This document shows positions 18,501-50,066 of a stretch of 64,000 nt of DNA, piece after piece. The notes below the pieces were generated by a model, which did no database searches, had not been told where the DNA came from, and worked only from the letters and a program-made list of their open reading frames with translations. How positions within the stretch are numbered: position 1 is the stretch's first letter; each line of letters starts with the position of its first letter. The position numbers and the translations under genes were made by a program. The DNA comes from Elusimicrobia bacterium GWC2_64_44 (lineage in GTDB: Bacteria; Elusimicrobiota; Elusimicrobia; Elusimicrobiales; UBA9959), in NCBI GenBank assembly GCA_001799845.1, contig MGUG01000007.1, forward strand, positions 1-64,000, given 5' to 3'.

Positions 18501-21500
18501 CCAGGCCACTTTCCACGGCGACGACACCTATTCCCCGGATTCCAAGCCCGGCTCCGTAGTGATCACGCTGCGGCCGGTCACCATGCTGTCCTATAACGTC
18601 ACCGACCTGCTGGCGGCCAGCACGTTCACCGCGCGGGTGCAGCTGAAGGACGCCTTCAACCAGCCCGTGCAGGGCCTCAGCGTCGACCTCGACTTCGAGG
18701 GGGACTTCGGCAGCGTCGTCACCGACGCGCAGGGCGAGGCCAGGTTCGTCTTCACGGCGCCCGCCTCCAGCGGCACCTACAGCTACTACGCCACGTTCTA
18801 CGGCGACGACCGCTACGCGGCCGCCAACGGCACCGGCACCGCCACGGTGGGCCCGCGCCCGACCATCCTGTTCACCTCGGAGGTCTCCGCCAAGCTGGGC
18901 GCGCCGCTGCAGCTGGCCGCCCGCCTGGTGGACGTGAACTCCCAGGCCGGCATAGCCGGCAGCACCGTGAGCTTCTACTTCGAGGGCTCCACCCTGACCG
19001 CCTTCACCGACGCTTTCGGCGGCTCCTCGGTCACCTTCGCCGCCCCCGCCTCCACCGGCACCTCTTTCTACGGCGCCGAGTTCGAGGGCGACGGCGTCGC
19101 CTACACCGGCAGCTCCTCCTCCTCGCCGGTCACCATAGCGCTGAACCTGACCACGCTGGACGCCCGCTCCGGCCTGACGCTTAAGATCTACGAGCCGCTG
19201 CCCGCCGAGGCCACGATCAGGGACTCCATAGGCGTGCAGCTGCAGGGCCTGCCCGTGATCTTCACCTTCGAGGGCAGTTCCGTCACCAGCGCCAGCAACG
19301 AGGTAGGCAAGGCCACGGCCTCCTTCCCCACCAACCTGCTGGCCTCCACCGGTACCTATAATTATGAGGCGGCTTACGAAGGCGACACCAACTACGTGGC
19401 CTCCAGCGACACCGGCAACGTGGTGAACGTCATCCGCCGCGAGTCGCTGCTGCTGGTCATGAACGCGCAGGCCACGCCCTCCAAGAACGTCTCGGTGGAG
19501 GCCCGCTTCTACGACAACGTCAACGGCAGCGCGCTGGCCGGCCAGCCCGTCCCCGGCAAGCCCGTGGTCTTCGAGCTCAACTGCGGCACCTACACGCAGA
19601 CCACCGTCTCGTTCACCTCGGTCGCCGGCCTCTCCACCGCGGCCTTCGTGTCCCCGGCCTCCACCGGCACCTTCGTGCTGACGGCCCGCTTCGCCGACGG
19701 CGACCCGGTCTACCTGCCGTACATCTCCACCGCCGCGCTGACCGTCTTCGTGGACGACGGCACCGGCGCCATCCGCACCAAGCTGCTGCTGGACGCCGCG
19801 GCCGCCTATATAGGCGCGCCCTTCGTGGCTTCGGGCACGCTGACCGCCACCGACCTGCCCGTGCCCGGCAAGGCCATCCTGTTCGAGTTCTTCAACGGCG
19901 TGGCCACCTTCACGGCGGCCGGCTTCACCGACGGCGTCGGCCTGGCCACGGCCGCCTTCACCGCGCCGGCCTCCTCCGGCACCTACCAGCTCACCGCGTC
20001 CTTCGCCGGAGACCTGGACTATTCCGCCGCCGCCGGCACCAACACGCTGACCGCCCTGCGCTACCCGGACTCGCTGACCGCCAAAGACGTGGTGGCCTAC
20101 GCCGGCGACACCTTCCTGGCCAAGGCCGTGCTCCGCGACCAGCTGACCCTGGCCTTCATTTCCTCCAGGACCGTGGTCTTCGAGTTCTTCAACGGCGTGA
20201 CCACCGAGACGCTGTCGGCGCTGACCAGTTCCACCGGTTCGGCCGAGGTCGCCTTCGTCGCCCCGGCCCTGGCCGGCGACTACTTCTTCACCGCCAGCTT
20301 CGCCGGCGACGCCGAGTACGTGCCGGCGGAGGACACCGGCTCCATGCTCATCGCCTCCAAAGGCTTCAGCACCTTCCTGCGCGGCTACGACGTCATCATC
20401 GGCACCGGCGAGGTGTTCGCCGCGTCGGCCACCCTGATGACCGGGGCCGCCTACCCCGTGCAGGGCAAGCCGGTAACCTTCACCTTCCAGGCCCTCAACA
20501 TAGTCTCCACCACGAACGCCCTGGGCATGGCGCTCTCCACCTTCACGGCCCCGGCCTCCAGCGGCACCTACGTCTACATGGCCGTTTTCTCCGGCGACGC
20601 CGGCTACAACGCCACCGACGCCACCGGCACTATTTCCGTGGTGTTCAGGCAGCAGCCGGAGCCGCCGGCCTTCACGGCGGAGGTCACGTCCACCACCGTC
20701 ACGCTGGCGTGGACTCCGGTCACGGTCTCGTCCGCGGCGGTGGCCAGCTACATCATAGAGCAGTCCGTCTCCCTGCGCGGCGGCGTAACCGCCAGCACGG
20801 CCGTGGCGGCCAGTTCGGCGGCTACGCAGGGCTATTCCATCCCGGTCGACGAGAACCAGACCACCTTCATCAAGATCAAGACCAGGCTCGACGACAACCA
20901 GCAGAGCGCCGGCACCGAGACCTCGCTTATAGTCGAAGTTCCCAGCAAGGTCGAAGACCCGGAGCGCGTGCCCAACTATTACTACATGAGCCCCGAGAAG
21001 GCCAATGGCGCGGCAGCCTGGGTAAAGATCCCCGGCGTGGTGATGGACAAGATCTCGGCTTCGGCCCCGATAGACATCAGGGTGGAGGAGCAGGCCGCCG
21101 CCGGCTACGAGGTCGCCTACAATATCTCCGCCCACAACGCGCCCCCGGAGCTGTCCGCCAACCTGAAGACCAACGACAGGCGGGGCATCAAGATCACCCT
21201 CGCCTATCCCACCAGCGGCACCGGGACGTCGGCCATCAGCGGCCAGCGCGCGCTGTTCTGGTACAACGGCGTGGAATGGATCAAGATCGGCGGCGACCTG
21301 GACGTGGTCAACCGCGAGATCTCCACCTACTCCCGCGTGCTGGGCCAGTTCGCCGTCAGGGCGGCCCCGCTGGCGGCGTCGTTCAGCTTCACCAAGGTCT
21401 CGCCGCGCGTCTTCACCCCCGATGAGCCGGACACCAGCGTCAACCGCGCCCGGTTCTACTTCGAGAACCCGGAAGGGGCGGAAGTTACCATCCGCATCTT

Positions 21501-21666
21501 CGACATCACGGGCGCGCTGGTGCGCCGCAACCTGGAGTACGAGGGCGCCTGGATGTTCTGGAACGGCAAAGACCAGGCCGGGACGTTCGTAAAAGGCGGC
21601 GTGTACATCTACCAGGTGGAATCCGGCGACAAGGTGATCACCGGCACCGTGGTGGTGGCCAAGTAA
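3556..21666 (+). CDS. Giant exported Ig-like repeat protein (6036 aa) with DUF2341-like N-terminus and FlgD-like C-terminal domain
   Basis: Predicted cell-surface or secreted protein of roughly 600 kDa. Domains in order: signal peptide (1-22); DUF2341-like region (~70-180, WTYRL...YYGS); lectin/concanavalin-like region (~180-375); Fn3-like domain (~484-575); several Ig-like segments to ~865; about 49 tandem Ig-like repeats of ~85-110 aa (~865-5698); a second Fn3-like domain (~5700-5795); a beta-rich ZU5-like region; and a 94-residue FlgD/Ig-like C-terminal domain (5943-6036, ending GGVYIYQVESGD...). The repeats resemble bacterial Ig-like group 3 (Big_3_5) or invasin-type domains. Such proteins usually act as adhesins or surface fibres; the C-terminal domain resembles type IX-type sorting domains. 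A free-standing copy of that domain and a PorV-like gene follow at once. The frame is uninterrupted over 18 kb. Exact function is unknown. Confidence 0.9.
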   Translation: MNKRVLIFSTLLFLLAGRPQAQVAYTENSGPQFDAGTHNFTYVSASEVMLDHYGRGAGLSAPAADAWYNPAWTYRLALSVDSANGSTLSAYPVAVTVNTQALIAAGRMNADGSDLRFTTAAVSGSPALLPYYIESGLNSASTRIWVKHSGISAGSNGLYMYYGSTSAAAASSMPGVYLLGDNFTGANGAAPSSSTWVSVNYGTPGAGSTRDIQANQLRILFGSPLGTRYYGLRSSNQYSFAAGRQYRADLVARTGTDSWSSLTLCQSVYTYTYDQDDWLRVAVHHSPSGASYALERSDSGIKTTLASGPLADGTHAVNLLVSASSFTVLLDGAQIYSAANTLAFNSPYLYLEAASAASSLEEFLFDNVSVQPYSAPEPAFGSAGAEQGRRYPSGYFLSQVRDTSSTSRFNRADWLDLLPQGSSVTLQARAHDTNIALASFSTVTKGGDPNITGRYVQYRLNFSASDPRYTASVSSVTLGYGSVPLAPTGGAGAAQSESSIRWTWTDNSSGQYQEDGFKIFDASGSLKGSVGTDIAEWTETGLYPNTQYSRAVGGYNAAGTGATAAMAKYTLPLPPSVSCDKSTGTWLSGPLTCINLSGFGANGVAYYRYEWNQQPTKTWSGAETQWLSGSLSKSDFFTGNYYLHVKSYNGDNVALAGYQTYGPFWYDKNVPTVTGFSPSSAPWQNTFVNPAVSFADTGGSKLYRARYRFTTSADRPATGWQAYNYSISGDSGTISSYTQSFEGQWYLHIEVEDVAGNVGYSYSGFGLPAGSAYKIDTTNPSGSININSGDAYTASPNVTLNLTYADGAAGVKTLGYKNVGAPGNYIPELPQATSAWILLPGDALKTVSLQVTDNAGNTQQYTKTITLDSRTALQGSAVGAAASGVMGEPAESFTAAAALSWAPTAAALSGKTVSFYFNGSTQTAVTSALGAASVDFAVPAASGPYIYNISFSTDGVYAASASTGVLTAAQRSTTLITEDVNGTSNNPFIAKATLKDLLTSSLITGATVTFYFEGSTQTAVTNAVGVATVTFTAPVPVSFYDYTAVYDGSPVYAAQNSVSRLGVGLRVTSLAVSPVTSPAGAVFNAQATLLDGVTPVEGSTITFVFQGSSNTAFTNASGVAIATFTAPASSGTYSYSGAFPGDGTYAASSGNSALTATRRPLSLVGETAQGYVNATFTARATLSDGINAQRVPGKAIVFVFEGSSLTMTTDALGVSTAVFSAGALARGASCYYYFAGDSGYNSADSTGTIAIEKRPVSLAASDLAGLVGSSFTATAQLKDAAFTPVGIAGKELIFSFGGSTQSVFTDSLGVASVTYQAGVSTGAYDYYVSFAQDSVYVAGSDTGTVTLDKRPTVLSAFPRFVFALDSIQALADLKDGITGEYISSQTISFNYAGIFQSTVTGTSGGNAGRAYSVYAGTGVAGTYSFSATFQGTALYSANSSTASITVTQRSVNLTAFPLTAIWGTTFTATAEFRDGATNSVVNGKILRLAFSTVPAGNFVTAGAGVASSTFSAPASTGTFSWFANFAGDAAYAPAASTGTLTVNRRPPTLTPIASSRYVWDSIYLSATFTDEGNPISGKQLSFYFNGSTLTATTNAGGIATSAAFSSMSVQGVYGFSVQFAGDTNYSAQSGSSTVTVNRRLSNVNVGPLSAIANSTVTLSATLVDTSWGTGISGKIVSFTLQNATHTLSATTNASGIASVVYQSSGVTGPYTYSATFAGNTNYSGTSSSETLTVTRRPAVLEMSDYYPPANSTFTAYAVLKDFTTGAQIASKTLSFLFRTSTQTALTNAVGYGATNYYTVSSTATLPITVSFAGDALYSAASVGKTVYPGRRNTALQTSDILTAVAKDTFTVTARLSDYDLGTFLANSTVTFSFSGSTYTLNAFTNSTGIASVQFAAPPSTGTYTYSASFAGSALYNGTMETSSVLVNRRTAAINPSDLTGVPAVSTFTASALFADGALTLSTKTLTFVFVSSKNAVTSGVGVATASFIAPLSTGTFIYKVTYNGDALYNPATAYATIGVVLKPTVLEVLDVPDAVVGLKFTGTAKLRDIEAGNALVIATKTITISFRPFAVTYTSAAVSAAGVSTAAFVAPLSTGTYGYTAVFAGDGVYGASTSSGTVTVNRRPVLFSLVSDPVSPHAYRANAINSSFTVTATLSDGQVAGLNLAGQSVTFVFQNSTKTATTNALGLASTTFASPASSGTYSYFGYFYGDNSYNPNRPEDSEKSINIIQRPTNILPRDSLSGLLNIDGSPNPYYTFWKIGVQSRIIDTLSGQGVLGVTANFVLNGSTITGLTDSIGTAVSSSPFPGVTNYGTYPAIVRFDGNGTYGPSILPGSTNLSDPYTAKIRIHQSPAGFDVPQITETYPDADTVLSGNVLDWWNRPVSYADRIDGNPNAALVGYPITYQVSTIPCGADCGAVGRNWAITGTGFISATNIASATVRSPVAAGDYPIQYWFNATNSFTQWGLGGAQRVLRVGRRLTYIIPDAEPFTAGAQIPIDLTLKLADLTQSLAGVNGKDLEVVLVTTQTLVTGTGGGVGKVKATFPGLAVGTYTYIARFADGDPAYMPFTSSGTVIVEKNTTVLSADDVSNVPAGNSFIAKATLNISSGVTNTPLPGKTINFVFTSTAGPTIDLTAVTNSIGVATVTYWAPYVPFPNYNYTATFVEDANNKGSADNANNVQVVKRRTQTTAQDVPQVYIQENFVSTATLVDLDLGNSTVPAKTISFVFHRQPDVNGSRATNALGVSSFTFSAPVSSGVYQYSATFPGDSVYALSSDTRTVTSLRRVTYIDAVDITTPTNNAFTITATLSDVTFNLGVSTPLAGLQVRFVFNGSTLYGTTAANGKASVSFTAPATAAFYPYSANFDGSQVFNVTTTNRQVEVRKRQTFVSGTDVTAPSGAQFTASASLIDEFGQKLQGYTLDFVFTGAGTFNGSGVTDVNGQTSALFTAPLSTGNYNYTAAFAGDATYEASADPVNAVTVNVASTTLSVPDGSIVVNNTYYSTATLLGAISGVGVESKLISFTYDGALLGQNATDINGKAVRTFIPTSTGTFRLDAVFSGDTAFYAASASATITVTRRTSSITLQQPVNTEVGAVFLATATLKDYTNALVAGRTIDFMFNGTPKTAVTNALGVATVTYNGPTPGGTTYPLTISFAGDTVYTSTNNAGIANVAKRVTQISVDNGSVSALEVFNATATLRWNGTPVAGKILYFNYKGSGNLPAPATDVNGQTFLQFSAGASSGPWRLDGAFTDGADPDYTTISGSGTITVLRRSCVVAPSNISMSVYDAFTASATFRDAANLSTPAGKVAKLSFNWMVAGSTFTTGASDASGLVTVSTGAPSSSGTYKVEGFFLGDATYAPSLASTATVTVTRRPTSLSVADAAAYIDRVFTATATLANNGTQLNNKYVLFTFEGRNFNAKTGAAGAGIAVATFTVTISTGLNRVDAVFNGDASYEPSAPASATVTAAMRRTYLVPVAATAVANKVFIATATLRDQFGTDVPGQQVSFAFNGTTLFPVTSGVGLASTTFSADVATGPYSIPAEFAGTYKLNYSSTTLNLAVLRRPTTVTPLSNVTTSALDVFYATATLRDLDSYAVPNKALRFVFQGSTFMVTTDAFGTSVSTWAAPASSGTYKVYSYFDGDPLYGTSASTITVTVQQRPTAIALNPVSAAALDVFRTTATLTDPRNGTLQLAGRPVTFTFSWAGTPSTGAVTDAVGLATASYQATPTAGNYTLTGAFAGDATYASTSTLVALSVAKRSAFVRGVFVSTRIFDVFTASGTFYDSVSSAPVNAHPLSFSLQNVATHTITTAGLGSGTTNFTAPASSGTYFLNIWSPGDATYNATTVYASSVTLSRRNSRLTLAGPANVIINSSFTPSGTLFDTVSNATVPVKTLSFLFQASTLPAVTNGLGVATTTYTASLSSGPFALQVSFAGDASYNPSVATRTVTALRYPTWLAGPAITVTMNEVLTATATLSNYLAAPVPGKQLIFNFEAQPFLALTGGSGIAYSTYSAAVASGTYALQASFSGDALYDSTTTALSVLVNKRAALLTPDPVTVKALDVFTATATLSDLKLPAQKLAGATVRFSFFVGGSTITNSGVTNVSGVAVSTFAAPASTGTYQYRVDFTGNGTFYPAFAYGSAAVTARPVLLMQDNSQGTIDEPFLSTATLVDQATLAPIASRTVLFTFGSSSAAATGPNGKALAGFTAPASSGTFQLNSSFAGDATYDSANSTGTLTVLRRPVTPAAPGIAGIIDEVFTSTLTLSDALNADKVSGTTVAFVFSGATFIAPTDGDGVAVATFSAPSSSGTFYAALNFAGNARYLPNNTTAQLLVDRRPVGLAPEWVLTRAGEIFTATATLTDTLAPGLPPAGKPLLFVFQGLSFTALTGPGGVAVSTFMAPASSGTLRLDVSFAGDARYQASASSETVSVLRRLSAITIDPAAILALDVFTATATLSDKNNPVVYAAGRTLTFTFRAEDFASVTDPGGVAVSTFAGPASSGTYVVEAAFAGDAIYDASYSSRAVTVLQRPAALTAADGSVYPFETYLASASIRDLATGAPLQGRLVSYLLDGVAASADSSALGVATATYSQTPAANGDYELAADFAGDATYAAVAASATVSVMQRPTSIAPSDTGTIALEVFTASATLYDVRLATPVAGKEVGFTFNGVTSTAATDAAGLALADFSAPVSSGVYYYAAEFAGDTVYALASATGAVTVGTRETRVEVNDANANVGEPFTLTARLVDPALEDLPGYYVPGVPVKFVFKDRNDVKKAEGYATTNAVGVATITFSVALTPDVYNYTASFEGNYTYTASSAAALVKVGLLTSLVAFDDETISLGEFTAKAKLTDYLSLTLDDKPIRFRFIAAEQAGVTNAAGQSGIASSTFSAPASSGTYFYTAHFDGDSIYSASNATGTLVVTLRPSVVIPITAFTSAHTSFTATATLYDPGLLAGVSGRDIDFLFNGATITANTDGGGMASATFFAPFSSGTVGYQATFHGDDTYSPDSKPGSVVITLRPVTMLSYNVTDLLAASTFTARVQLKDAFNQPVQGLSVDLDFEGDFGSVVTDAQGEARFVFTAPASSGTYSYYATFYGDDRYAAANGTGTATVGPRPTILFTSEVSAKLGAPLQLAARLVDVNSQAGIAGSTVSFYFEGSTLTAFTDAFGGSSVTFAAPASTGTSFYGAEFEGDGVAYTGSSSSSPVTIALNLTTLDARSGLTLKIYEPLPAEATIRDSIGVQLQGLPVIFTFEGSSVTSASNEVGKATASFPTNLLASTGTYNYEAAYEGDTNYVASSDTGNVVNVIRRESLLLVMNAQATPSKNVSVEARFYDNVNGSALAGQPVPGKPVVFELNCGTYTQTTVSFTSVAGLSTAAFVSPASTGTFVLTARFADGDPVYLPYISTAALTVFVDDGTGAIRTKLLLDAAAAYIGAPFVASGTLTATDLPVPGKAILFEFFNGVATFTAAGFTDGVGLATAAFTAPASSGTYQLTASFAGDLDYSAAAGTNTLTALRYPDSLTAKDVVAYAGDTFLAKAVLRDQLTLAFISSRTVVFEFFNGVTTETLSALTSSTGSAEVAFVAPALAGDYFFTASFAGDAEYVPAEDTGSMLIASKGFSTFLRGYDVIIGTGEVFAASATLMTGAAYPVQGKPVTFTFQALNIVSTTNALGMALSTFTAPASSGTYVYMAVFSGDAGYNATDATGTISVVFRQQPEPPAFTAEVTSTTVTLAWTPVTVSSAAVASYIIEQSVSLRGGVTASTAVAASSAATQGYSIPVDENQTTFIKIKTRLDDNQQSAGTETSLIVEVPSKVEDPERVPNYYYMSPEKANGAAAWVKIPGVVMDKISASAPIDIRVEEQAAAGYEVAYNISAHNAPPELSANLKTNDRRGIKITLAYPTSGTGTSAISGQRALFWYNGVEWIKIGGDLDVVNREISTYSRVLGQFAVRAAPLAASFSFTKVSPRVFTPDEPDTSVNRARFYFENPEGAEVTIRIFDITGALVRRNLEYEGAWMFWNGKDQAGTFVKGGVYIYQVESGDKVITGTVVVAK
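6150..20650 (+). repeat. Array of about 49 degenerate Ig-like coding repeats
   Basis: Within the giant gene the same module recurs about 49 times by my count. Each begins with a Phe-Thr-Ala-Thr-Ala-Thr-Leu-like strand, has a central 'TNALGVAT-TF-APASSGTY' segment, then 'A-FAGDA-Y--S', and ends with 'TVTV-RRPT'. Period is about 260-330 bp. Copies differ widely at the protein level, so the array is old rather than recently amplified. A few units are atypical, for example the two around 10240-10970, which have longer inserts and a Cys pair near 10780. Confidence 0.85.
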
Positions 21667-21673
21667 TAATTTT

Positions 21674-22021
21674 ATGAACTACATCGCTTCAACTTTAGCC
21701 CTGTCCGCCCTGCTGGCGGCGCCTGCCTCGGCGGCTTTCAAGCTGACCGAAGTCTCGCCGCGCGTCTTCAGCCCGCGGGAGGGGAACACGGCCATCAGCC
21801 GCGCCTGGTTCCGCTTCTCCAACCCCGAAGGGGCCGAGGTGACCATCCGCATCTTCGACATCAACGGCAGGCTGGTGCGCCGCAACCTGGAATACTCCGG
21901 CGCCGACATGTTCTGGAACGGCCGCGACCAGGGCGGCGCGCTGGTGAAGGGCGGCGTGTACATCTACCAGATAGAATCCGGCGACAAGGTGCTGACCGGC
22001 ACCGTGGTGGTGGCCATATGA
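21674..22021 (+). CDS. Small exported protein consisting only of a FlgD-like C-terminal (sorting-type) domain
   Basis: 115 aa: a signal peptide (1-21, ending APASA) followed directly by a ~94-residue domain. By my residue-by-residue alignment about 70 of 94 positions (74%) match the C-terminal domain of the giant protein just upstream, including VSPRVF, NPEGAEVTIRIFDI, LVRRNLEY, MFWNG and GGVYIYQ. No passenger domain is present. It starts 7 bp after the giant gene stop, and its own stop overlaps the PorV-like gene start (ATGA), so it is in the same operon. It could be a competitor or adaptor for the sorting receptor, a structural subunit, or the remnant of a second cargo gene. No precedent is known to me. 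Confidence 0.85.
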   Translation: MNYIASTLALSALLAAPASAAFKLTEVSPRVFSPREGNTAISRAWFRFSNPEGAEVTIRIFDINGRLVRRNLEYSGADMFWNGRDQGGALVKGGVYIYQIESGDKVLTGTVVVAI

Positions 22022-23682
22022 GACGCTTATCCATCGCTCTCTGCCTGACCGCCCTGCTGGGCGCGCCGGCCCGCGCCGCCTTCGAGGACGTGGACGCCGG
22101 CCCGCGCGCCTCGGCCATGTCCGGCGCTTACGCCGCGCAGTCTGAGGGCATCTCCTCCATCTTCTATAACCCGGCCGGCATCATAGGCGTGACGCGCTAC
22201 GAGGCGTCGCTCGCGCAGCAGAAGCTCTACCTCGGCCTCACCGACGGCAGCTCGCTGTCGCGCAGCGCCCTCGCCTTCGGCACGCCGCTGGACTTCGGCG
22301 GCAAGTACTGGGGCAGCGCGGCCTTCGGCCTGGACACGCTGAGCCTCGACAGCCTCTACAGCGAGTCCCGCATGCGCCTCGGCTGGGCTTATCCCGTGCG
22401 CGAGCGCATCTGGGTGGGCTTAGCCATTGCCCGCATGGGCGTTACCTACGGCAAGGACTCTACCGCCCCCGCCAACCCCGTGCTGGCCACCGCCGACGGA
22501 GCTTCGGCCATAGGCCTGGACCTCGGCGCCATCTACAGCCTGGACTCCGCCGACCTGGGCATCTCCATACAGAACGCCAACGAGCCGGACCTGGGCATCA
22601 AGTACGAGAACAAGGTAGCCCGCAAGATCACGCTGGGCATGGCGCTCAAGCGCCCGTCGTTCACCTGGGACACCGACCTGGCCGTGACCGGCTCGGACCT
22701 GAAGATCAAGACCGGCGCCGAAGTGCCGGTGATGCGCGAGAAATTCGGCGACCGCGCGCTGGCCCGGGCGGGCCTGAGCGTAGGATCGCGCGACTACCGC
22801 GCGCTGTCGGCAGGCTTCGGCTACCGGCGCGGCTCCTACCGCATAGATTATGCCTTCGCCTACCCGCTCAGCGGGCTGTCCGGCACCATGGGCTCCCACC
22901 AGCTCGGCGTTGTCGTGGCCTGGGGCGACGCCCGCGGCCCGATGGCCGGCCGCGCCGAACAGTACACGCCCGAAGAAACCGATAAGAACAAGAACCGCGG
23001 CGCGGGCGCCGGCGGCGCCGGGGACGGCGGGGAAATGGTGGTCAAGAAAACCGCCCCGACACGGCTCGAGGCAGAGAAGGCCGCAAAGCTCCTGGCCGAG
23101 GCCAGGCTGACCCTGCGCGGCGGCGCCTACGAAACCGCGCTAAAAGGCATCAAGAGGGCTGACGACCTGCTGATGGGCACCGATCCCGCCGCCAGGGAGC
23201 TGATGGTCAAGGTCGCGGCCGTGGCCGCCATCTTCCCCGAGACCTCCGGCCCGACCGAGCGCGAGGACATCCTGCGCAAGTCCGTGGGCCGCTACACCGA
23301 CAACAATACCGACGCGGTCCTCTACGCCACCTACGCCCGGCAGAAATGGACCAGGGACGTAGGTATAGCCAAGCTCTACGCCCTGATCTCCAGGGACTTC
23401 CCGCAGACGGCCTCGGAGCTGCGCATCCTGGCGGGCATCACCATCGTGGACCAGCTGCTGCAGGACGCGCTGGACTTCATCCGCAGCGGCCGCTTCATCC
23501 AGGCCATCTCCAAGCTGCAGCAGGTCCTGCAGCTCGAGCCGGACAACATCCCGGCCCTGACCCGCATGGGCTCGGCCTACTGGGCCATGGAGAAGAAAGA
23601 TATAGCCAGGAAGAACTGGCAGCGGGTGCTGGACCTCGACCCGAACAACACTGAAGTACGGCAGTTCATGAAAATGAATTAA
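22018..23682 (+). CDS. PorV/UPF0164-type outer-membrane protein with C-terminal TPR domain
   Basis: 554 aa. Signal peptide (1-19), then a ~290-residue beta-barrel region starting with the FadL/PorV-like signature RASAMSGAYAAQSEGISSIF and NPAGI. The barrel is followed by a low-complexity Gly-rich/charged linker (~320-340) and an alpha-helical TPR-like region (~345-554), the last repeat reading QLEPDNIPALTRMGSAYWAMEK. PorV-family proteins sit in the outer membrane and, in type IX secretion, bind the C-terminal domains of cargo. The position directly after two genes carrying such domains suggests the same role. The TPR extension would be periplasmic and could contact other machinery. The fusion to TPRs is not typical of Bacteroidota PorV. 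Confidence 0.8.
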   Translation: MRRLSIALCLTALLGAPARAAFEDVDAGPRASAMSGAYAAQSEGISSIFYNPAGIIGVTRYEASLAQQKLYLGLTDGSSLSRSALAFGTPLDFGGKYWGSAAFGLDTLSLDSLYSESRMRLGWAYPVRERIWVGLAIARMGVTYGKDSTAPANPVLATADGASAIGLDLGAIYSLDSADLGISIQNANEPDLGIKYENKVARKITLGMALKRPSFTWDTDLAVTGSDLKIKTGAEVPVMREKFGDRALARAGLSVGSRDYRALSAGFGYRRGSYRIDYAFAYPLSGLSGTMGSHQLGVVVAWGDARGPMAGRAEQYTPEETDKNKNRGAGAGGAGDGGEMVVKKTAPTRLEAEKAAKLLAEARLTLRGGAYETALKGIKRADDLLMGTDPAARELMVKVAAVAAIFPETSGPTEREDILRKSVGRYTDNNTDAVLYATYARQKWTRDVGIAKLYALISRDFPQTASELRILAGITIVDQLLQDALDFIRSGRFIQAISKLQQVLQLEPDNIPALTRMGSAYWAMEKKDIARKNWQRVLDLDPNNTEVRQFMKMN

Positions 23683-23769: not shown

Positions 23770-25215
23770 ATGACCAAGAATAAAATAACGGCTTTGATCC
23801 TGCTGGCGGCGGCGCTGCTTCCGGCCGTCCAGGCCCCGGCGCAGACCATAGACGCCCTGCGCGGCAAGATAGCCCTGGAGGCGCAGATAGAAGAGCGCCT
23901 GCGCGCCATGCTCTCGTCCTACCTCAACACCAAGGACGTGGCCGTGGCGGCCAAGGTCAATATCCTGGTGCGCAAGCCCGAGGAACAGAAGAGCGGGGTG
24001 CGCAGGTGGGACGACAAGGACGAGATCATCCTGCCCGGCGTGCCCGCGGCCACCTCGATGACCAAGGACGCCGGCGCCGCCAAGGCGGCCGACGCCGCCA
24101 AGAAGCAGATGCGGCTCGGTGTGGAAAGCGTCAATGTCTGGGTCATGGTCGGCAAGCCCATCACCAAGGACCAGGAAGCCAAGGTCAAGAAGCTGGTCAC
24201 CGACGCCCTCGGCCTGGACGCCGAGATAGGCGATACCATCTCCGTGGAGAGCTCCGCCCCAGAGAAGCCCGCCCGCGAGCTCCCCGGCATGGCGCCGATA
24301 ATCGCCCTGATCTGCCTGGCCGTGCTGGCCGTGTTCCTCTACGGGCCCTTCCGCGCCTTCCTCAAACGCCTCAACGAGAACCTGGCCGCGCTGGCCACCG
24401 CCAAGAAAGGCCCCGCCGAAAAGGGCGGCGGCGGCGGGGAGATAAGCCTTTCCGGCGACGAGATCCCGGCCGAGACCACCATGTCCGGCGCGCTGGCCAT
24501 CTCCGGCGGCGGGGGCGGCGGCGGCGCGTCCGTGCTCTCGTTCGATTCCGGCGAGAACGTCCCGCTGGACAAGTTCGTCACCAAGGACAACGTGGACGAC
24601 CTGATGCTGATCCTGCACGACGAGCCGGCCGACGTGATAGCCCGCGTGGTGCAGCGCATCCCGCAGAAGCTGGCCTTCGCCGCGATCCCGAAATACAAGA
24701 TGAAGGAAGTGCTGGAGCAGTTCCTCAAGCGCGAGTTCGACGAGCCGGAGAAGATCAAGGCCCTGCTGGAGCGCATCAAGGACAAGATGGCCGGCTCCTT
24801 CGGCGGCGAGCAGCGCCTGGGCAACCTGATGCAGATCATGGACAAGAAATCCCAGGAGCGCACGCTGGCCTTCGTCCGCGAACGCGACGCCGCTTTCGCG
24901 GCCGCCGTGGAGACCCGCTACTTCAAGTTCGAGGACCTGCTGCGCTACGACGAGATGGCCATGCGCCGCGTCTTCCGCAAGGCCGGCGCCGAGGCTTTCG
25001 CCCGCTGCATGAAGAACTGCGACGGCCCCACGCTGGAGGCTTTCTACGAGGCCCTCGGCCCCGCCATCAAGGACCTGATCAGCGCGCGCATGCAGACCAT
25101 GCTGCTGACCGGCGACACCAACGATTCCGAGCTGACCATACTCGCCGCCGTGCAGGCCCTGGCCGCCAAGGGCCTGATCCTGCCGCTGGCCGACGTCAAG
25201 CAGGTTAAGGCCTAG
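23770..25215 (+). CDS. FliF-like/FliG fusion: exported N-terminus, one membrane helix, cytoplasmic FliG middle and C-terminal domains
   Basis: 481 aa with an unusual architecture. A signal peptide or first anchor (1-25) is followed by a periplasmic region (27-165) resembling the distal part of MS-ring FliF: an amphipathic 'IEERLRAMLSSYL' helix, a beta strand, LPGVPAATSM at 88-97 (cf. GVPG..SN of FliF), then a helix and GDTISVES (154-161). After it come a membrane helix (174-192) and a Gly-rich cytoplasmic linker. Residues 275-385 match the FliG middle domain (GG at 345-346, then 'RYFKFEDL'), and 386-473 match the FliG C-terminal torque domain. The FliF ring-building domains and the FliG N-terminal domain are missing. 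K415 aligns with the conserved Lys of FliG (E. coli K264), but the other torque charges look changed. It heads a cluster with MotA, two MotBs and CheY. Probably the rotor or anchor of a non-flagellar motor. Confidence 0.8.
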   Translation: MTKNKITALILLAAALLPAVQAPAQTIDALRGKIALEAQIEERLRAMLSSYLNTKDVAVAAKVNILVRKPEEQKSGVRRWDDKDEIILPGVPAATSMTKDAGAAKAADAAKKQMRLGVESVNVWVMVGKPITKDQEAKVKKLVTDALGLDAEIGDTISVESSAPEKPARELPGMAPIIALICLAVLAVFLYGPFRAFLKRLNENLAALATAKKGPAEKGGGGGEISLSGDEIPAETTMSGALAISGGGGGGGASVLSFDSGENVPLDKFVTKDNVDDLMLILHDEPADVIARVVQRIPQKLAFAAIPKYKMKEVLEQFLKREFDEPEKIKALLERIKDKMAGSFGGEQRLGNLMQIMDKKSQERTLAFVRERDAAFAAAVETRYFKFEDLLRYDEMAMRRVFRKAGAEAFARCMKNCDGPTLEAFYEALGPAIKDLISARMQTMLLTGDTNDSELTILAAVQALAAKGLILPLADVKQVKA

Positions 25216-26020: not shown

Positions 26021-26788
26021 ATGGCACTTGTAAAAAAGAAAGTCCAGATGCCGGTCGTGTGGCTGACGGTCTACAGCGACCTCATCACCAACGAGGCACT
26101 GTTTTTCATGATGCTGTTCGCCAGCGTTCTCATCGCCTATCAGAAGGGCATGACCGAGGCCGAGTTCCGCGACTATATGCGCGGCGTCTCCTCGGCCATC
26201 CACCACAGGGAGGCCGCGGCCCAGGTCATGTCCGAGACCGGCAAGAAGCTCGCAAAGATCGAGGGCGTCGCCGGGGTCAAGATGAGCGACAAGGACCTGC
26301 GCATAGTGCTGCCCGAGCCGGTGCTGTTCGAGTCCGGCAAGGCCAAGCTGAAAGAGGAAGGAGCCCAGGTGCTGACTGACATCGGCACGGCGCTCGCCGC
26401 CACGCGCTACGACCTGGCCATAGAAGGGCACACCGACGACGTGCCGATAACGCAGACCGCCCCGCCGGGCATGAAGCGCTGGCAGCTGGCCATGGCCCGC
26501 TCCACCGGCCTCGGGCCTTACTATTCCAACAGGGAGCTGTCCGCGGCGCGCGCCCTGCAGGTGCTGCAGTATTTCAGCCGCGAGAAGCTGCTGGTGCCGG
26601 AGCGCCTGACGGCCGCCGCGTACGGCGAGTTCATCCCCGCCGTGCCCAACACCAGCGACGAGAACCGCGCCCAGAACCGGCGCATAGAGATAAAGCTGGT
26701 GCTGCGCGACAGGCGGGCCATGGTGCGGGCCGAGCAGGCCGCCGCCGCCGCGCCTCAGCCCCAGCCGGAACAGGCAACGACACCGTGA
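26021..26788 (+). CDS. motB: MotB-like stator subunit with channel Asp and OmpA domain
   Basis: 255 aa. A short cytoplasmic N-terminus (KKKVQMP) leads into one membrane helix, WLTVYSDLITNEALFF, which aligns without gaps to the MotB consensus W-[LT]-F-A-D-L-M-T-L-L-x-x-F-F. D20 is in the place of the essential ion-binding Asp (E. coli D32). E25 adds a second acidic residue inside the helix, where MotB normally has Leu. After a plug/linker region, residues ~95-235 are an OmpA/MotB peptidoglycan-binding domain (EGHTDDVPI; ENRAQNRRIEIKL). A Gln/Pro/Ala tail follows. Its TGA overlaps the GTG start of the next MotB paralogue. Confidence 0.9.
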   Translation: MALVKKKVQMPVVWLTVYSDLITNEALFFMMLFASVLIAYQKGMTEAEFRDYMRGVSSAIHHREAAAQVMSETGKKLAKIEGVAGVKMSDKDLRIVLPEPVLFESGKAKLKEEGAQVLTDIGTALAATRYDLAIEGHTDDVPITQTAPPGMKRWQLAMARSTGLGPYYSNRELSAARALQVLQYFSREKLLVPERLTAAAYGEFIPAVPNTSDENRAQNRRIEIKLVLRDRRAMVRAEQAAAAAPQPQPEQATTP

Positions 26789-27465
26789 AGAAAAAGAAAC
26801 TGGATTTCTCGGCGGCCATGACCGCCTACCTGATGCCCTATATAGGCGTCATGACGATCCTGTGCATCTTCTTCCTCATCCAGTACGCCGACTATTCCGA
26901 GCGTCTCAAGAAGAAGAACGCCGAGCGCAACGAGAATATCGCCCTGGAGGTCAAAGAGGACCTCAAGGACATGGAGAACGTGAAGGTGGAGGTCATGGAG
27001 GACGGCATCAAGGTGACGCTGCCGTCGTCGGTGGTCTTCGACCTCAGCGTGGCCCGGTTGAAAGACGCGGCCCTGCCCACGCTGCAGAATTTCGCCGAGA
27101 GCATCAAGAAGCTCGACGCCCTCTACCTGGTGACCGTAGAGGGCCACACCGACAACGCGCCGGTCTTCTACGGCGGGGACTTCTCTTCCAACTGGGAACT
27201 GTCGCTGTACCGGGCCATCAGCGTGGTGGATTTTCTGGTGCAGCAGGGCAACGACCCGGGCCGGTTCGCGGCCGCGGGCCACGGCGAGTTCAAGCCGCTG
27301 TTCGCCAACGACACCCCCGAGCACCAGGCCGAGAACCGCAGGGTGGAGATCATTATACGCAGGAAAACCACGGCCGCCGCCCCGGTGACGGCCATAGCCG
27401 GCGCGGCGCTAGTGCCCGCCGCAAATAAGGCAGCAGGTAAGGCAGACCAAGGAGAACCGATATGA
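26785..27465 (+). CDS. Second MotB-like subunit, lacking the channel Asp
   Basis: 226 aa, GTG start overlapping the previous stop (GTGA). A basic N-terminus (KKKK) precedes one membrane helix, MPYIGVMTILCIFFLIQ. Aligned on the shared MT-x-L-x-x-FF core, the position of the ion-binding Asp is G21. A charged coiled-coil-like stretch (34-60) and an OmpA-type peptidoglycan-binding domain (~60-195; VEGHTDNAPV, AENRRVEIII) follow; the tail is Ala-rich. Since MotB acts as a dimer, this protein could pair with the Asp-containing paralogue to make an asymmetric stator, or serve as a non-conducting wall anchor. The loss is read from the sequence; its effect is inference. It overlaps the CheY-like gene by ATGA. 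Confidence 0.87.
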   Translation: MKKKKLDFSAAMTAYLMPYIGVMTILCIFFLIQYADYSERLKKKNAERNENIALEVKEDLKDMENVKVEVMEDGIKVTLPSSVVFDLSVARLKDAALPTLQNFAESIKKLDALYLVTVEGHTDNAPVFYGGDFSSNWELSLYRAISVVDFLVQQGNDPGRFAAAGHGEFKPLFANDTPEHQAENRRVEIIIRRKTTAAAPVTAIAGAALVPAANKAAGKADQGEPI

Positions 27466-27842
27466 AGATACTCATCGCCGACGACGACGACGACCTGCGG
27501 GACCTGGTGGAGATGGTCCTGGGCTCGGCCGGCTATACCGTCCTGGCCAACAACAACGGCAAGCGGGCCTGGGAGACGCTGCAGAAAGAAGGCGCCGACA
27601 TGGCCGTGCTGGACATCAACATGCCGGAGATGGACGGCCTGGAACTGCTGGACCTGATCCGCAACGACGACCGCTACAAGGAGATGCCCGTGATGCTGCT
27701 CACCGCCCGCAAGGGCATGGACGAGCGCGCCAAGGGCCTGGAGCGCGGCGCCGACGACTACCTGACCAAGCCGTTCGACAACGACGAACTGATACGGCGG
27801 GTGAAACTGCTGGAGCAGGCCTACCCGGCCAACGGGACCTGA
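27462..27842 (+). CDS. CheY-like response regulator of the motor cluster
   Basis: 126 aa single receiver domain. D7-D9 form the acidic pocket, D51 in AVLDINMPEMDG is the phospho-acceptor, LLTAR gives the conserved Thr, and YLTKPFD gives the conserved Lys. There is no DNA-binding domain. Translational coupling to the second MotB gene (ATGA) makes a role in controlling the motor plausible, analogous to CheY acting on the flagellar switch. No kinase is encoded in this cluster; the sensor kinase at 1513-3006 is the nearest candidate. Confidence 0.9.
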   Translation: MKILIADDDDDLRDLVEMVLGSAGYTVLANNNGKRAWETLQKEGADMAVLDINMPEMDGLELLDLIRNDDRYKEMPVMLLTARKGMDERAKGLERGADDYLTKPFDNDELIRRVKLLEQAYPANGT

Positions 27843-27844
27843 GC

Positions 27845-29971
27845 GTGACCATGAGGACCGTGAAAACTATCCTGGCGGCCGCCCTGGCCGCCTGCTGGGC
27901 GGCGGCGGCGCAGGCCGCGCCGTCCATGATAGTCTTGTCCTCGGCCACCTACAACTCGGTAGGGGCGGACGACAGGGCCACCGCCGTCTATATAGACCCC
28001 GCCGGCAACATCTTCGTCACGGGCAACAGCGGCAACGACTACCTCTCGATAAAATATACAAAGACCCTGACGCCGGGCACGCCCATGATCTACACCAACG
28101 GGCGCGGCGGCAACATCCCCGGCGGCATAGCGGTGGACGGCCTCGGCAACATCCTGGTGGCGGGCATGGAGACCAACGCCTCTTTCCTGCAGGACTACCT
28201 GCTCCTCAAGTATTCCTCTAATTTCGGCGCGCTGCTCTCCTCGGCCTCTTTCGACAGCGGCAATTACGACAGAGCCACCGCGGTAAATACCGACGGCCAG
28301 AATAACGTCTACGTTACCGGCTTCAGCAACGACGGCCTCACCGATAATTTCTATACCATTAAATACAGCCCGGCCCTGAACCAGCTCTCCACGGCGGCCT
28401 ACGACAGCGGTGACCTGGACCAGCCCTTCGCGATGGCCTTCAACGGCAGCGACCTGATAGTGGCCGGCTACACCAGGGCCGGGGGAACAAACAACAACGT
28501 ACGCCTGGTCCGCTACGACAACCAGCTCAACTACCTGCCGCCCTCGGTCTCCTTCGACAGCGGCGGCGACGACCGGGCCGTAGGCGTGGCGGTGGATTCC
28601 GACGGCAATATCATCGTAGCGGCGCGGCAGGCCGCCAATATGCTGGCGCTCAAGTACGACAGCACGCTGACGACGCTGCTCTCCTCCGCCGTGTATGCGG
28701 GCGGCACGCCCACCGGCGTGGCCGTGGACCTGGCGGACAACGTGATCCTGACGGGCTATACGGGCACCGCCGGCTCGGCCGACTTCTTCACCATCAAGTA
28801 CGACGCGGCCCTGAACGCGGTGTCCACGGCCGCCTACAACGGCGGCGCCAACGGCACCGACCAGTCCAACGCCGTGGCCGTGGACGCCGAGGACAACCTG
28901 GTGGTGGCCGGCCAGTCCAGCAGCGCCGATTTCGACTACTTCATCGTCAAGTACAACGCCTCCCCGCGCCTGAGCGAAGTCACCCCGCTCTATATCGGCG
29001 AGACGGCCAACGTTACGCTGACCGGCAGGGGCCTGCTTGCGGATACCGCGGTCTCTTTCTCCGACCCCGGCATCTCCACCGGCGCATATTCCTACAACTC
29101 CGGCCAGATCACGCTGGCGGTGACGCCGTCGGCGGCCGTGGTGCTGGGCGTCACCACCATCACCGTCACCAACTCCAACGGGGAGTCTTACACCAGCGCA
29201 GCGCTGGCCCGCACCCGCCTGCGCCAGACCATCGCCGCCGGCGCTTCCGCCGACATAACGGCCATGACTACCCTGGGCCAGATCTCCCTCTCCGTGCCGG
29301 CCGGCTCCTTCGTCGGGCTGCCGGAAACCATCACCCTTTCTCCCGAGGCCGCGGCGTCCGGTGACATTCAGCAGGTGGGCGAGGCCCTCTTCGTGGCCGG
29401 CACGCCCTCCACCACCTCCCTGCTCAACCTGACCATCACGCTGCGCTACAGCGTGGCCGACCTGGCCGGCTACGCCGAGGGCGAACTGTCCCTGGCGTAT
29501 TTCGACTCCCTGGCCGGCTGGGTCACGCTGCCCTCTTCGGTCAACACCTCGGCCAAGACCGTAACGGCTTCAGCCAAGCCGGCCAACACGAAATACGCTG
29601 TGGTAAAACTGATCAACACCGGCGGCGGCGGCGGCGGCGGGGGCGGCGGCGGCGGGGCTGGCGGCAGCGGCATACCGGCCAAGGTCTACCCCAATCCCTA
29701 CCGGCCCGGCAGCGGCGGCAGCTTCGACGATTCGACCCTGGGCGCGGGCATAGTCTTCGCCGGGCTGGGCGCCGGCCAGGCCTTCAAGCTGACCATAGTG
29801 GACCTGGCCGGGCAGCTGGTCTACCAGAAATCCGCCTCTGCCGACGCCAGCGGCAAGTACCTCTGGGACACCAAGACCGCCTCAGGCGGCAACGCCACCA
29901 CCGGCGTCTACATCTATTACATCAAGGGAGGCGGGGAGCCCGTGAAGGGCAAGTTCTCCATCATCCGCTGA
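27845..29971 (+). CDS. Exported SBBP-type beta-propeller protein with YPNP C-terminal domain
   Basis: 708 aa secreted protein. Signal peptide (about 1-25, ending AQAAP), then ~345 residues of 45-55-residue repeats of the type 'DRATAV..D..NN.YVTG.S...D..TIKY', typical of SBBP beta-propeller repeats. An IPT/TIG-like Ig domain (~380-460), a ZU5-like beta region (~465-590) and a polyglycine linker follow. The last ~98 residues begin VYPNPYRPG and end GVYIYYIKGG...GKFSIIR, a FlgD/type IX-like C-terminal domain. GTG at 27845 is 8 nt from GGGA; ATG at 27851 is an alternative start. It follows the CheY-like gene by 2 bp and is followed by a PorV-like gene 3 bp later. Ligand unknown. Confidence 0.83.
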   Translation: MTMRTVKTILAAALAACWAAAAQAAPSMIVLSSATYNSVGADDRATAVYIDPAGNIFVTGNSGNDYLSIKYTKTLTPGTPMIYTNGRGGNIPGGIAVDGLGNILVAGMETNASFLQDYLLLKYSSNFGALLSSASFDSGNYDRATAVNTDGQNNVYVTGFSNDGLTDNFYTIKYSPALNQLSTAAYDSGDLDQPFAMAFNGSDLIVAGYTRAGGTNNNVRLVRYDNQLNYLPPSVSFDSGGDDRAVGVAVDSDGNIIVAARQAANMLALKYDSTLTTLLSSAVYAGGTPTGVAVDLADNVILTGYTGTAGSADFFTIKYDAALNAVSTAAYNGGANGTDQSNAVAVDAEDNLVVAGQSSSADFDYFIVKYNASPRLSEVTPLYIGETANVTLTGRGLLADTAVSFSDPGISTGAYSYNSGQITLAVTPSAAVVLGVTTITVTNSNGESYTSAALARTRLRQTIAAGASADITAMTTLGQISLSVPAGSFVGLPETITLSPEAAASGDIQQVGEALFVAGTPSTTSLLNLTITLRYSVADLAGYAEGELSLAYFDSLAGWVTLPSSVNTSAKTVTASAKPANTKYAVVKLINTGGGGGGGGGGGGAGGSGIPAKVYPNPYRPGSGGSFDDSTLGAGIVFAGLGAGQAFKLTIVDLAGQLVYQKSASADASGKYLWDTKTASGGNATTGVYIYYIKGGGEPVKGKFSIIR
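29621..29657 (+). repeat. GGC-rich simple repeat encoding a polyglycine linker
   Basis: A 37-bp tract made almost only of GGC/GGG units encodes about 12 consecutive Gly residues between the beta domains and the C-terminal sorting-type domain of the propeller protein. Such tracts can slip in replication; gain or loss of whole triplets would change linker length, other changes would remove the C-terminal domain. Confidence 0.8.
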
Positions 29972-29974
29972 CCT

Positions 29975-31126
29975 ATGAAGAAGACCGCCTCCCCGCTCAT
30001 CCTCCTGACGGCCGCCCTGCTGCTGGCCGCCGGCGGGGCGCGCGCGGCCGGCACCTCCGGCGCCTCTTTCCTGCGCGTGGGCTGGGGCGCCAGGCCGGCC
30101 GCCATGGGGGAAGCCTTCACCGCAGCCGCCGACGACGTGGACGCGGTCTACTGGAACCCCGCCGGCCTCAACTACGTCAAGCGCCTGCAGCAGACCTTCG
30201 GCCACAACAGCTGGCTGGAGGGGACCAACTTCGAGCATGCCGCCTTCGCGCTGCGCCGCAGCACCGCCTCCGTGCTGGGCGTGGGCATCGCCTACCTTAA
30301 TACAGGGGACATAGAGCGCGGCAACAAGTACGGCTACACCGAAGGCTACTACAGCGCCGCCGACATGTCGGTGCTGCTGTCCTACGCGCGCAGGCTCAAG
30401 AAGATCCATACCGGCGTCACGCTGAAGGTGGTGCAGGAGCGCATCGAGAGCTCTGAGGCCAAGGCCTTCGCCGCCGACGCCGGCGCCATCTACGAATTTT
30501 CCCCGAAGCTGCGCCTCGGCGCGACGCTAAAGAACCTGGGCACGGGCCTGACGCTGACCAAAGAGGCGGCCCCGCTGCCCATGGGCCTGCGGGCGGGCGC
30601 GGCGCTGCAGTTCTCCAAGAACCTCCTGCTCACCTCCGACGCCAGCCTGCCTTTCGACGATTCGCTGAGCCTGCATTTCGGCGCGGAATACATCTACCCG
30701 TCCCCGGTAAAGGGCGTGCGCCTGGCCCTCCGGGGCGGCTTCAAGACCGCCTCTATGGCCTACCTGGGCGCGACCTCGGCCCTCACGCTGGGCTTCGGCG
30801 CCGAGGCGGGGGCCGTCGGGCTGGACTACGCGCTGAGCCCGTACGGGGACCTGGGCCTGACGCACAGGGTCAGCCTCAAGATAAAGTTCGATTCCCTCTC
30901 CGCCAAGGCGGACTCTGACATAGTCATACAGAAGGGCAAGCGGACCATCCGGCGCGGCGCGGCCGAAGTGTACGCCGAGACCCTGCAGTGGTTCGAGGCC
31001 AAGGCGGCTTCCGAAAAGCTTTCCAAGACTGAACAGGCCGCCATCCTCAAGCGCGTCATAGAGAAATTCTCGGCGCTGGGCGTGGACGTCTCCCGGGCCA
31101 GGCAGCTGCTGGGGGCGGGGCAATGA
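29975..31126 (+). CDS. PorV/UPF0164-type outer-membrane protein
   Basis: 383 aa. Signal peptide (1-24, ending GGARAA), then a barrel region with the family signature 'GWGARPAAMGEAFTAAADDVDAV' in two parts (GARPAAMGEAF and DAVYWNPAGLNY), many alternating beta strands, and 'LGATLKNLGTGL', common in PorV/FadL-like proteins. The C-terminal ~75 residues are predicted helical (EVYAETLQWFEAK...LLGAGQ) and would face the periplasm. It lies 3 bp after an exported protein with a YPNP C-terminal domain, the second of three such pairs here. A receptor or shuttle for that domain is the likely role. The following LysM gene overlaps by ATGA. Confidence 0.85.
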   Translation: MKKTASPLILLTAALLLAAGGARAAGTSGASFLRVGWGARPAAMGEAFTAAADDVDAVYWNPAGLNYVKRLQQTFGHNSWLEGTNFEHAAFALRRSTASVLGVGIAYLNTGDIERGNKYGYTEGYYSAADMSVLLSYARRLKKIHTGVTLKVVQERIESSEAKAFAADAGAIYEFSPKLRLGATLKNLGTGLTLTKEAAPLPMGLRAGAALQFSKNLLLTSDASLPFDDSLSLHFGAEYIYPSPVKGVRLALRGGFKTASMAYLGATSALTLGFGAEAGAVGLDYALSPYGDLGLTHRVSLKIKFDSLSAKADSDIVIQKGKRTIRRGAAEVYAETLQWFEAKAASEKLSKTEQAAILKRVIEKFSALGVDVSRARQLLGAGQ

Positions 31127-31734
31127 GCCGCGCCCTGGCCCTTTGCGCCGCCGCGCTGGCGCTGGCGGCCGCGCCGTGCCGGGCCCAGGTCCGCGACACC
31201 CTGGCCAGGGGCGAGGATTTCTTCCTGACCGGCAAGCTGGACTACGCCGTCAATTTTTTCTCCGGCATGGTAAAAGACAACCCCAAAGACTCCAGGGCCA
31301 GGGAGATACTGGGCTACTGCCTGGTGATAAAGGGCAAAGAGGCGCTCCGGGAGGGGAACCCGGCCCAGGCCCGGGTCTCGCTGGCCCGGGCGGGGGACTT
31401 CCTGCCCCGGCACCCTGAGCTGAAGACGCTTGGCCTGCTGGCCGAGCTGGAGGAGAGCGCCCCGACACCCTCGGTCCCGCTCTCCACCGCCACCCTGGAC
31501 ACCGCGGGGGAAACCCAGGCCGTACTGGATTGCCTTTTCGGCGACGGGGAATGCGCCAAGGGCGGCCGCTACGCCGTGCACGTGGTCCGCGAGGGCGAGA
31601 CCATGGCCGAGATCGCCATCCGCTACTACAACGACCTGGCCCTCTGGGAAAAGATCTGGGCCGCCAACCCCCAGCTGGCCAACCCGCACCGCCTGGAGAA
31701 AGGCATGAAGCTGCTTATCCCGCTGGACAAGTAA
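31123..31734 (+). CDS. Exported TPR-like/LysM protein
   Basis: 203 aa. Signal peptide (1-22, ending PCRAQ), then TPR-like helices (~25-115; AVNFFSGMVKDNPKDSRARE), a Thr/Ser/Pro linker, and a C-terminal LysM domain (~148-203: HVVREGETMAEIAIRYYND ... NPHRLEKGMKLLIP). LysM binds peptidoglycan, so this protein probably tethers something to the cell wall in the periplasm. Its start overlaps the stop of the PorV-like gene, which suggests it works with that outer-membrane protein, perhaps fixing the complex to the wall as the MotB OmpA domains do for the stator. Confidence 0.85.
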   Translation: MSRALALCAAALALAAAPCRAQVRDTLARGEDFFLTGKLDYAVNFFSGMVKDNPKDSRAREILGYCLVIKGKEALREGNPAQARVSLARAGDFLPRHPELKTLGLLAELEESAPTPSVPLSTATLDTAGETQAVLDCLFGDGECAKGGRYAVHVVREGETMAEIAIRYYNDLALWEKIWAANPQLANPHRLEKGMKLLIPLDK

Positions 31735-50029: not shown

Positions 50030-50066
50030 GCCGGGGCGGGCCGTCGGCCCGGGGCGCAGATCCCAT

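Follow-up and report, generated by a model that had tools for sequence, protein, structure and literature searches.

RBM3 is the motif from which the flagellar S-ring is built. In Escherichia coli, excerpts of one study assign primary importance to FliG residues R281, D288 and D289 and to MotA residues R90 and E98 (PMC6079164). FliF and FliG have been joined artificially in an engineered Vibrio FliFG, a single chain whose rings form (PDB 8z4d/8z4g; excerpts of PMC11481574). Bacteroidota have a proton-driven inner-membrane motor, GldL-GldM, with PorV and SprA-type parts and tailed substrates, as described in the accessible portions of two articles (PMC8986121, PMC9127263). AglRQS of Myxococcus is named as a gliding motor in an article whose accessible text contains no FliG (PMC12204202). 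Elusimicrobia, the group treated here, lack flagellar genes according to a figure legend in the accessible part of PMC7031533.

Here we describe a natural fusion of FliF-like and FliG-like domains, encoded in a 64,000-nt stretch (the window) of Elusimicrobia bacterium GWC2_64_44, contig MGUG01000007.1, together with neighboring genes (Table 1). The fusion belongs to a real, phylum-wide FliF(RBM3)-FliG family that is independent of flagella and has its own MotA/MotB genes. Among the matches listed in searches of an open-access library, none describes the system.

Table 1. Genes of the fusion cluster, in window coordinates
Feature	Position	Strand	Evidence
6036-aa repeat protein with T9SS type A-like C-terminal tail	3556..21666	+	ORF; tail at 21457-21657, above cut-off
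115-aa protein, mostly T9SS type A-like tail	21674..22021	+	TIGR04183, 26.9 bits (cut-off 23)
PorV-like outer-membrane barrel with C-terminal TPRs	22018..23682	+	TPR above cut-off
RBM3-FliG fusion, putative rotor subunit, 481 aa	23770..25215	+	ORF, Pfam, profiles
MotA-type stator channel protein, 252 aa	25243..26001	+	Pfam MotA_ExbB, E 1.1e-23
MotB1: N-terminal TM with ion-binding Asp, OmpA peptidoglycan-binding domain	26021..26788	+	OmpA, E 5.8e-14
MotB2: MotB-like, Asp replaced by Gly, OmpA domain	26785..27465	+	OmpA, E 8.5e-16
Single-domain response-regulator receiver	27462..27842	+	Response_reg, E 4.3e-31
SBBP beta-propeller-repeat protein with T9SS type A-like tail	27845..29971	+	SBBP, E 3e-11
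PorV/PorQ family outer-membrane protein	29975..31126	+	NF033709, 171.7 bits (cut-off 90)
LysM-domain protein, last of conserved cluster	31123..31734	+	LysM, E 2.4e-6

Domains of the fusion protein

A first-pass annotation of the sequence had described a single ORF running from a FliF-like into a FliG-like half, and Pfam domains of both halves indeed lie within it: YscJ_FliF_C (PF08345) at residues 115–162 (E 1.3e-5) and FliG_C at residues 370–470 (E 3.5e-10), each above its curated cut-off. Pfam gave no match to FliG_N or to PF01514 (the YscJ_FliF N-terminal region, RBM1/RBM2), and none to FliG_M at E ≤ 1. The layout is RBM3 (~24–172), a TM helix (~173–191), a Gly-rich linker (~215–262) and FliG_M/C (~267–470). 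By hydropathy the N-terminus is signal-peptide-like, with a hydrophobic stretch at 6–24; the single strong hydrophobic helix is at 173–191, and a weaker segment at 455–473 falls inside FliG_C. An AlphaFold model of the full-length protein, drawing on 7 close sequences, was of low confidence (mean pLDDT 46.5, pTM 0.26).

Family profiles were built from 31 hand-picked fusion proteins, with the N and C halves aligned apart. The C-half profile (31 members) matched E. coli FliG 109–324 (hhalign probability 99.2, E 1.4e-19) and PDB 1lkv, a FliG middle plus C-terminal structure (E 8.7e-67), bearing out the two FliG domains claimed earlier, and phmmer aligned residues 267–470 of the fusion with FliG middle and C-terminal structures in the PDB (3usy, E 5e-7). 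Support for FliG_M in the window protein comes from the family profile, phmmer and relatives, not from a Pfam match of its own; FliG_N is absent, the C-half profile beginning at E. coli FliG residue 109. Two relatives, L037 from the same genome and L051, have full-length YscJ_FliF_C, FliG_M and FliG_C in one ORF, all above cut-off.

The N-half profile matched E. coli FliF 374–433 (hhalign probability 92.4, E 5e-7, with a probability of 0.4 for E. coli MotB as control). Its positions 13–148 matched PDB 9yh6, a 34-chain FliF entry (E 6.9e-9), and further matches were 6scn (E 8.5e-7) and the single-RBM SpoIIIAG, 5wc3 (E 1.1e-5). A model of the N domain, of modest confidence (mean pLDDT 59.2, 5 sequences), has the order helix-strand-strand-helix-strand around a poorly predicted insertion. 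Foldseek searches with this model returned 17 PDB matches at E ≤ 0.001, all 17 of them FliF MS-ring/S-ring chains (TM 0.42–0.50, rmsd 18–25 Å); since the model is modest, we take this as support rather than proof. Because of the FliF and SpoIIIAG profile matches and the Foldseek matches to FliF rings, the N half is assigned, by profile and model, as FliF RBM3. The earlier statement that the protein is without ring-building domains therefore stands for RBM1/RBM2 and must be given up for RBM3, which is retained.

Torque residues

E. coli K264 is kept as K415 in the window fusion, and R281, D288, D289 and R297 are replaced by A432, A439, R440 and L446, as the first-pass alignment had it; one of the five charged torque residues is thus retained. 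Arg was found at the R281 position in 0/30 family members with a residue there (window included), one having Lys, and likewise at the R297 position in 0/30. The 288 position is acidic in all 12 long forms (described below), the 288/289 pair being E-E in 7 and E-I in 5. Among short forms the pair is Q-E in 9/18 and A-R or S-R in 4/18, namely the window, L040, L053 and L041. The residue changes are thus partly family-wide (281 and 297) and partly subfamily-specific (A-R or S-R for the acid pair).

On the stator side, window MotA has Lys at the R90 equivalent and Gly at the E98 equivalent, and L041 has lost the basic residue. We looked for charge changes in MotA that would compensate those in FliG, but no simple rule emerged: the window combines Lys at MotA R90 with Arg at FliG D289. 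As judged from these alignments, the FliG-MotA contact is remodeled, the E. coli charge pattern not being kept.

Such changes could be taken to mean that the fusion does not rotate, and is instead a static clamp or force sensor joining MotA/MotB-type channels to the envelope in a Tol-Pal-like manner. Arg never occurring at the R281/R297 equivalents (0/30) and Arg replacing D289 in the window speak for this, as does the fact that no rod, hook or filament partner is known. But RBM3 ring homology, a FliG_C torque domain that retains K264, and the preservation of the MotA P173 and P222 equivalents in 31/31 MotAs (window included) argue against a static role, which we regard as improbable.

Stator genes beside the fusion

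The MotA gene begins 27 bases downstream of the fusion. Judged by sequence, the operon has stator hallmarks: MotA with the conserved prolines, and MotB with a TM Asp and a peptidoglycan-binding domain; a MotB_plug match in MotB1 fell below the Pfam cut-off. The pairing holds across the genome: of its seven MotA_ExbB genes, five are no more than 10 kb away from the five fusions encoded there (binomial P 1e-6). We also examined 35 fusion loci, picked from the best matches and not a random draw, and found MotA within 9 kb of the fusion in 29; the exceptions were L042, L077, L078, L080, L081 and L083.

Tandem MotB pairs occurred in 16 distinct loci (17 rows, L058 being, as judged from length and match, the same contig as L040). 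The ion-binding Asp was present in MotB1 at 15 and in MotB2 at 9 of these 16, and in at least one MotB at all 16. Seven loci have lost the MotB2 Asp and kept that of MotB1 (window, L040, L041, L046, L049, L053 and L059); the replacing residue is Gly in the window, Ala in L041, and Asn in L046 and L049. At L051 it is the first MotB, not the second, that is without Asp. Single-MotB loci keep the Asp in 15/16 cases, with Ser in L089. These patterns suggest a heterodimeric MotB1/MotB2 stator that may be able to work with one Asp.

Occurrence in the phylum and relation to flagella

The window protein had matches in 117/294 genomes of the phylum, which rules out a singleton or a misassembly, and FliG_C had matches in 120/294. 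Seven relatives on named contigs showed 72–96% identity in the best segment, 6/7 being from Elusimicrobia or Elusimicrobiales. A plasmid search gave no match.

The source genome has five FliG_C ORFs, all with the N domain. In a tree of the FliG part they fall on five separate branches, and each has a MotA of its own no more than 10 kb away. The window-type branch (support 97/96) is common to genomes G037, G261 and G277; three others are the C54 type (98/94), the C5 type and, on a long branch, a C30 row. The fifth is the long form, of ~650 aa, which occurs across classes and makes a 12-row clade (100/99), with C-terminal TPRs in all four that were scanned (L036, L051, L081 and L084). G037, which has no FlhA match, also encodes a stand-alone FliG_M/FliG_C protein with TPRs and without RBM3 (L087:9335-10375), adjoining a ParA-like ATPase; in the FliG tree it clusters with the long forms of the fusion.

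Searches of the source assembly (90.2% complete) found no FlhA, no FliM/FliN and, at E ≤ 0.1, no PF01514, with 4/14 control genomes positive in each search. The first-pass annotation had asked whether flagellar genes accompany the fusion in other genomes: FlhA occurs in 3/294 phylum genomes, against the 117 for the fusion. One of the three, G215, also carries a fusion (L084). The flagellar loci of G215 and G032 have separate, adjacent fliF (PF01514 and PF08345) and fliG (N, M and C domains).

These data bear on the reading of the fusion as a decaying flagellar remnant, or as the ordinary FliG of a full flagellum, the case that the earlier annotation had set against its own. The homology of both halves to flagellar FliF and FliG speaks for such a reading, as does the occurrence of FlhA in the phylum, but the core genes not found in the 90.2% complete assembly and the five intact, MotA-paired paralogues, on separate branches and some common to several classes, tell against it; moreover, the flagellar loci of G215 and G032 have ordinary fliF and fliG, the G215 fusion being additional. 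We consider it almost certainly wrong. The annotation's own proposal, a rotor or force receiver whose construction departs from that of the flagellar C ring, gains from the lack of detected flagellar core genes and from the adjoining MotA, and needs amending in that the ring domain RBM3 is retained and that some of the residue changes are family-wide.

Gene neighborhood and possible outer-membrane partners

The PorV-TPR gene lies directly upstream of the window fusion; its PorV_fam match (E 6.7e-7) is below that profile's own cut-off. The order giant tailed protein, tail protein, PorV-TPR and fusion is common to the window, L040, L041 and L053. Downstream of the fusion, these loci share MotA, MotB1, MotB2, receiver, tailed SBBP protein, PorV and LysM genes in that order, the receiver having its equivalent place in L040 and L053 and being missing from L041, a locus from another class; gene order is thus kept between classes. 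In the window, the tail of the SBBP protein scored 24.4 bits with TIGR04183 (cut-off 23). Among the 35 examined loci, a PorV-like gene was within 9 kb of the fusion in 25, directly upstream in 16, and 10 had none in that range. Domain content, MotA pairing and gene order are in this sense direct observations, as is the failure to find flagellar core genes in the assembly.

The receiver is encoded with the motor genes although FliM/FliN were not found in the assembly. A CheY-like domain has been proposed to act on the T9SS motor (excerpts of PMC10951265), to which the receiver may be a possible parallel, by analogy.

Several other loci drew our attention. In G134, a 1244-aa ORF joins a FliF-FliG fusion to a tailed SBBP protein (L042:11416-15150), at a locus with no MotA/MotB; it represents either a naturally fused rotor and surface protein or the remains of a deletion. 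A 13,463-codon open frame on contig C35 of the source genome, near 22483 (L106:4429-19998 and further), closes with a weak, below-cut-off T9SS-like tail and adjoins a PorV-TPR gene and a long fusion. Elsewhere in the window are a 1934-aa protein (37632-43436) with a T9SS-like tail above cut-off and with GlxA-type oxidase and delta-60 repeat matches below theirs, and a Bat-like cluster (49040-56509) whose consecutive genes encode a MoxR ATPase, a DUF58 protein, two vWA proteins, of which one has TPRs, and a BatD-type protein.

Two T9SS features are present in the cluster: a member of the PorV family and sorting tails of type A. There were 21 type A tail matches in the source genome, 14 above cut-off, and 6/21 lay no more than 10 kb from a fusion (the binomial P is 6e-5, although these are clustered); counted per locus, tails lie near 3/5 of the genome's fusions, which is weak (P 0.017). 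A distant SprA homologue occurs in 254/294 phylum genomes, in none of them above the curated cut-off. That of the source genome is a 1794-aa protein on contig C44 (L105:7100-12484; E 1.4e-37, 128.6 bits, cut-off 200). No SprA_N Pfam match was found, in a search whose positive control was also silent. The SprA-like protein may possibly be a T9SS-like translocon outside Bacteroidota.

The motor might then mainly energize T9SS-like export in place of GldL/GldM, rather than move adhesins. The PorV family and tailed proteins of the cluster and the wide occurrence of the SprA homologue fit this, as does the count of GldM above cut-off, 0/294 phylum genomes, but that search had no positive control, and 4/294 genomes, of genus g13 in family f2, gave weak matches (best E 0.0024). 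Genomes of f2 carry the SprA-like protein, yet among them only G134 is among the FliG_C matches; the fusion is therefore not the general power source of the SprA-like protein. Five motor subfamilies per genome also seem more than one export system needs, and we see export as the main task as possible but unlikely.

Proposed envelope motor

Because of its RBM3 and FliG homology and its pairing with MotA genes, we think it fairly probable that the fusion serves as rotor subunit in an ion-driven motor of the cell envelope that is independent of flagella and has an outer-membrane output. We infer ring formation, rotation, ion coupling and that output from homology, pairing and neighbors, as follows. 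The exported RBM3 domain would form a periplasmic ring in the manner of the flagellar S-ring, with each subunit spanning the inner membrane by one helix. The FliG_M/FliG_C part would make a cytoplasmic ring, 1:1 with the S-ring and without FliG_N, FliM or FliN. The neighboring MotA/MotB stator, here MotA and two MotBs, would be anchored to peptidoglycan by OmpA domains and push FliG_C. Through the ring, torque would reach partners in the periplasm and outer membrane, for which the PorV-like/TPR protein and giant T9SS-tailed surface proteins are the probable candidates, and the output would be to move surface adhesins, or help their export, in a gliding-like manner. The task of the motor is read from its neighbor genes only, and with low certainty we favor surface-protein movement over secretion because the SprA-like protein is independent of the motor in f2.

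We tentatively put forward the fuller picture of an undescribed Elusimicrobiota rotary envelope machine, with a minimal FliF(RBM3)-FliG rotor, MotA and homo- or heterodimeric MotB, several subfamily-specific motors per genome, and PorV-like/TPR coupling to giant T9SS-tailed proteins. If it is right, the flagellar rotor-stator core exists and diversifies without export apparatus, switch or filament, and FliF RBM3 with FliG M and C domains may suffice for a rotor. The system would then serve as a naturally minimal motor, without the E. coli charge pattern, for probing what torque transfer needs and for testing whether a stator can run on a heterodimeric MotB with one Asp. Such a machine, in effect a flagellar engine attached to an output of gliding or secretion type, would also bear on whether flagellar and type IX/gliding machines are interchangeable as outer-membrane engines.

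Comparison with known systems

SpoIIIAG, the ring of the sporulation channel, likewise has a single RBM with an insertion and is matched by the N-half profile, but it has no FliG part and no MotA/MotB. The proposed system would resemble GldL-GldM as an inner-membrane motor with PorV-type outer-membrane parts and tailed substrates; it uses other motor proteins, GldM being above cut-off in no phylum genome by a search without positive control. AglRQS has one MotA/TolQ-type protein and two TolR-like partners and is not known to have a FliG or RBM component. The window operon resembles it in encoding one MotA-type protein with two different MotB-type partners.

Vibrio FliFG is a full-length laboratory fusion working within a flagellum, as far as the accessible text describes it (PMC11481574), whereas the window fusion is natural and without RBM1/RBM2 and FliG_N. 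The same domains separate it from the flagellar motor, in which FliF and FliG are not fused. The fusion system also differs from that motor in having several paralogous motors and PorV-like and T9SS-tailed neighbors, with no FlhA/FliM/FliN found; what the two share is RBM3, a membrane helix, FliG_M, FliG_C, and MotA with MotB-type partners.
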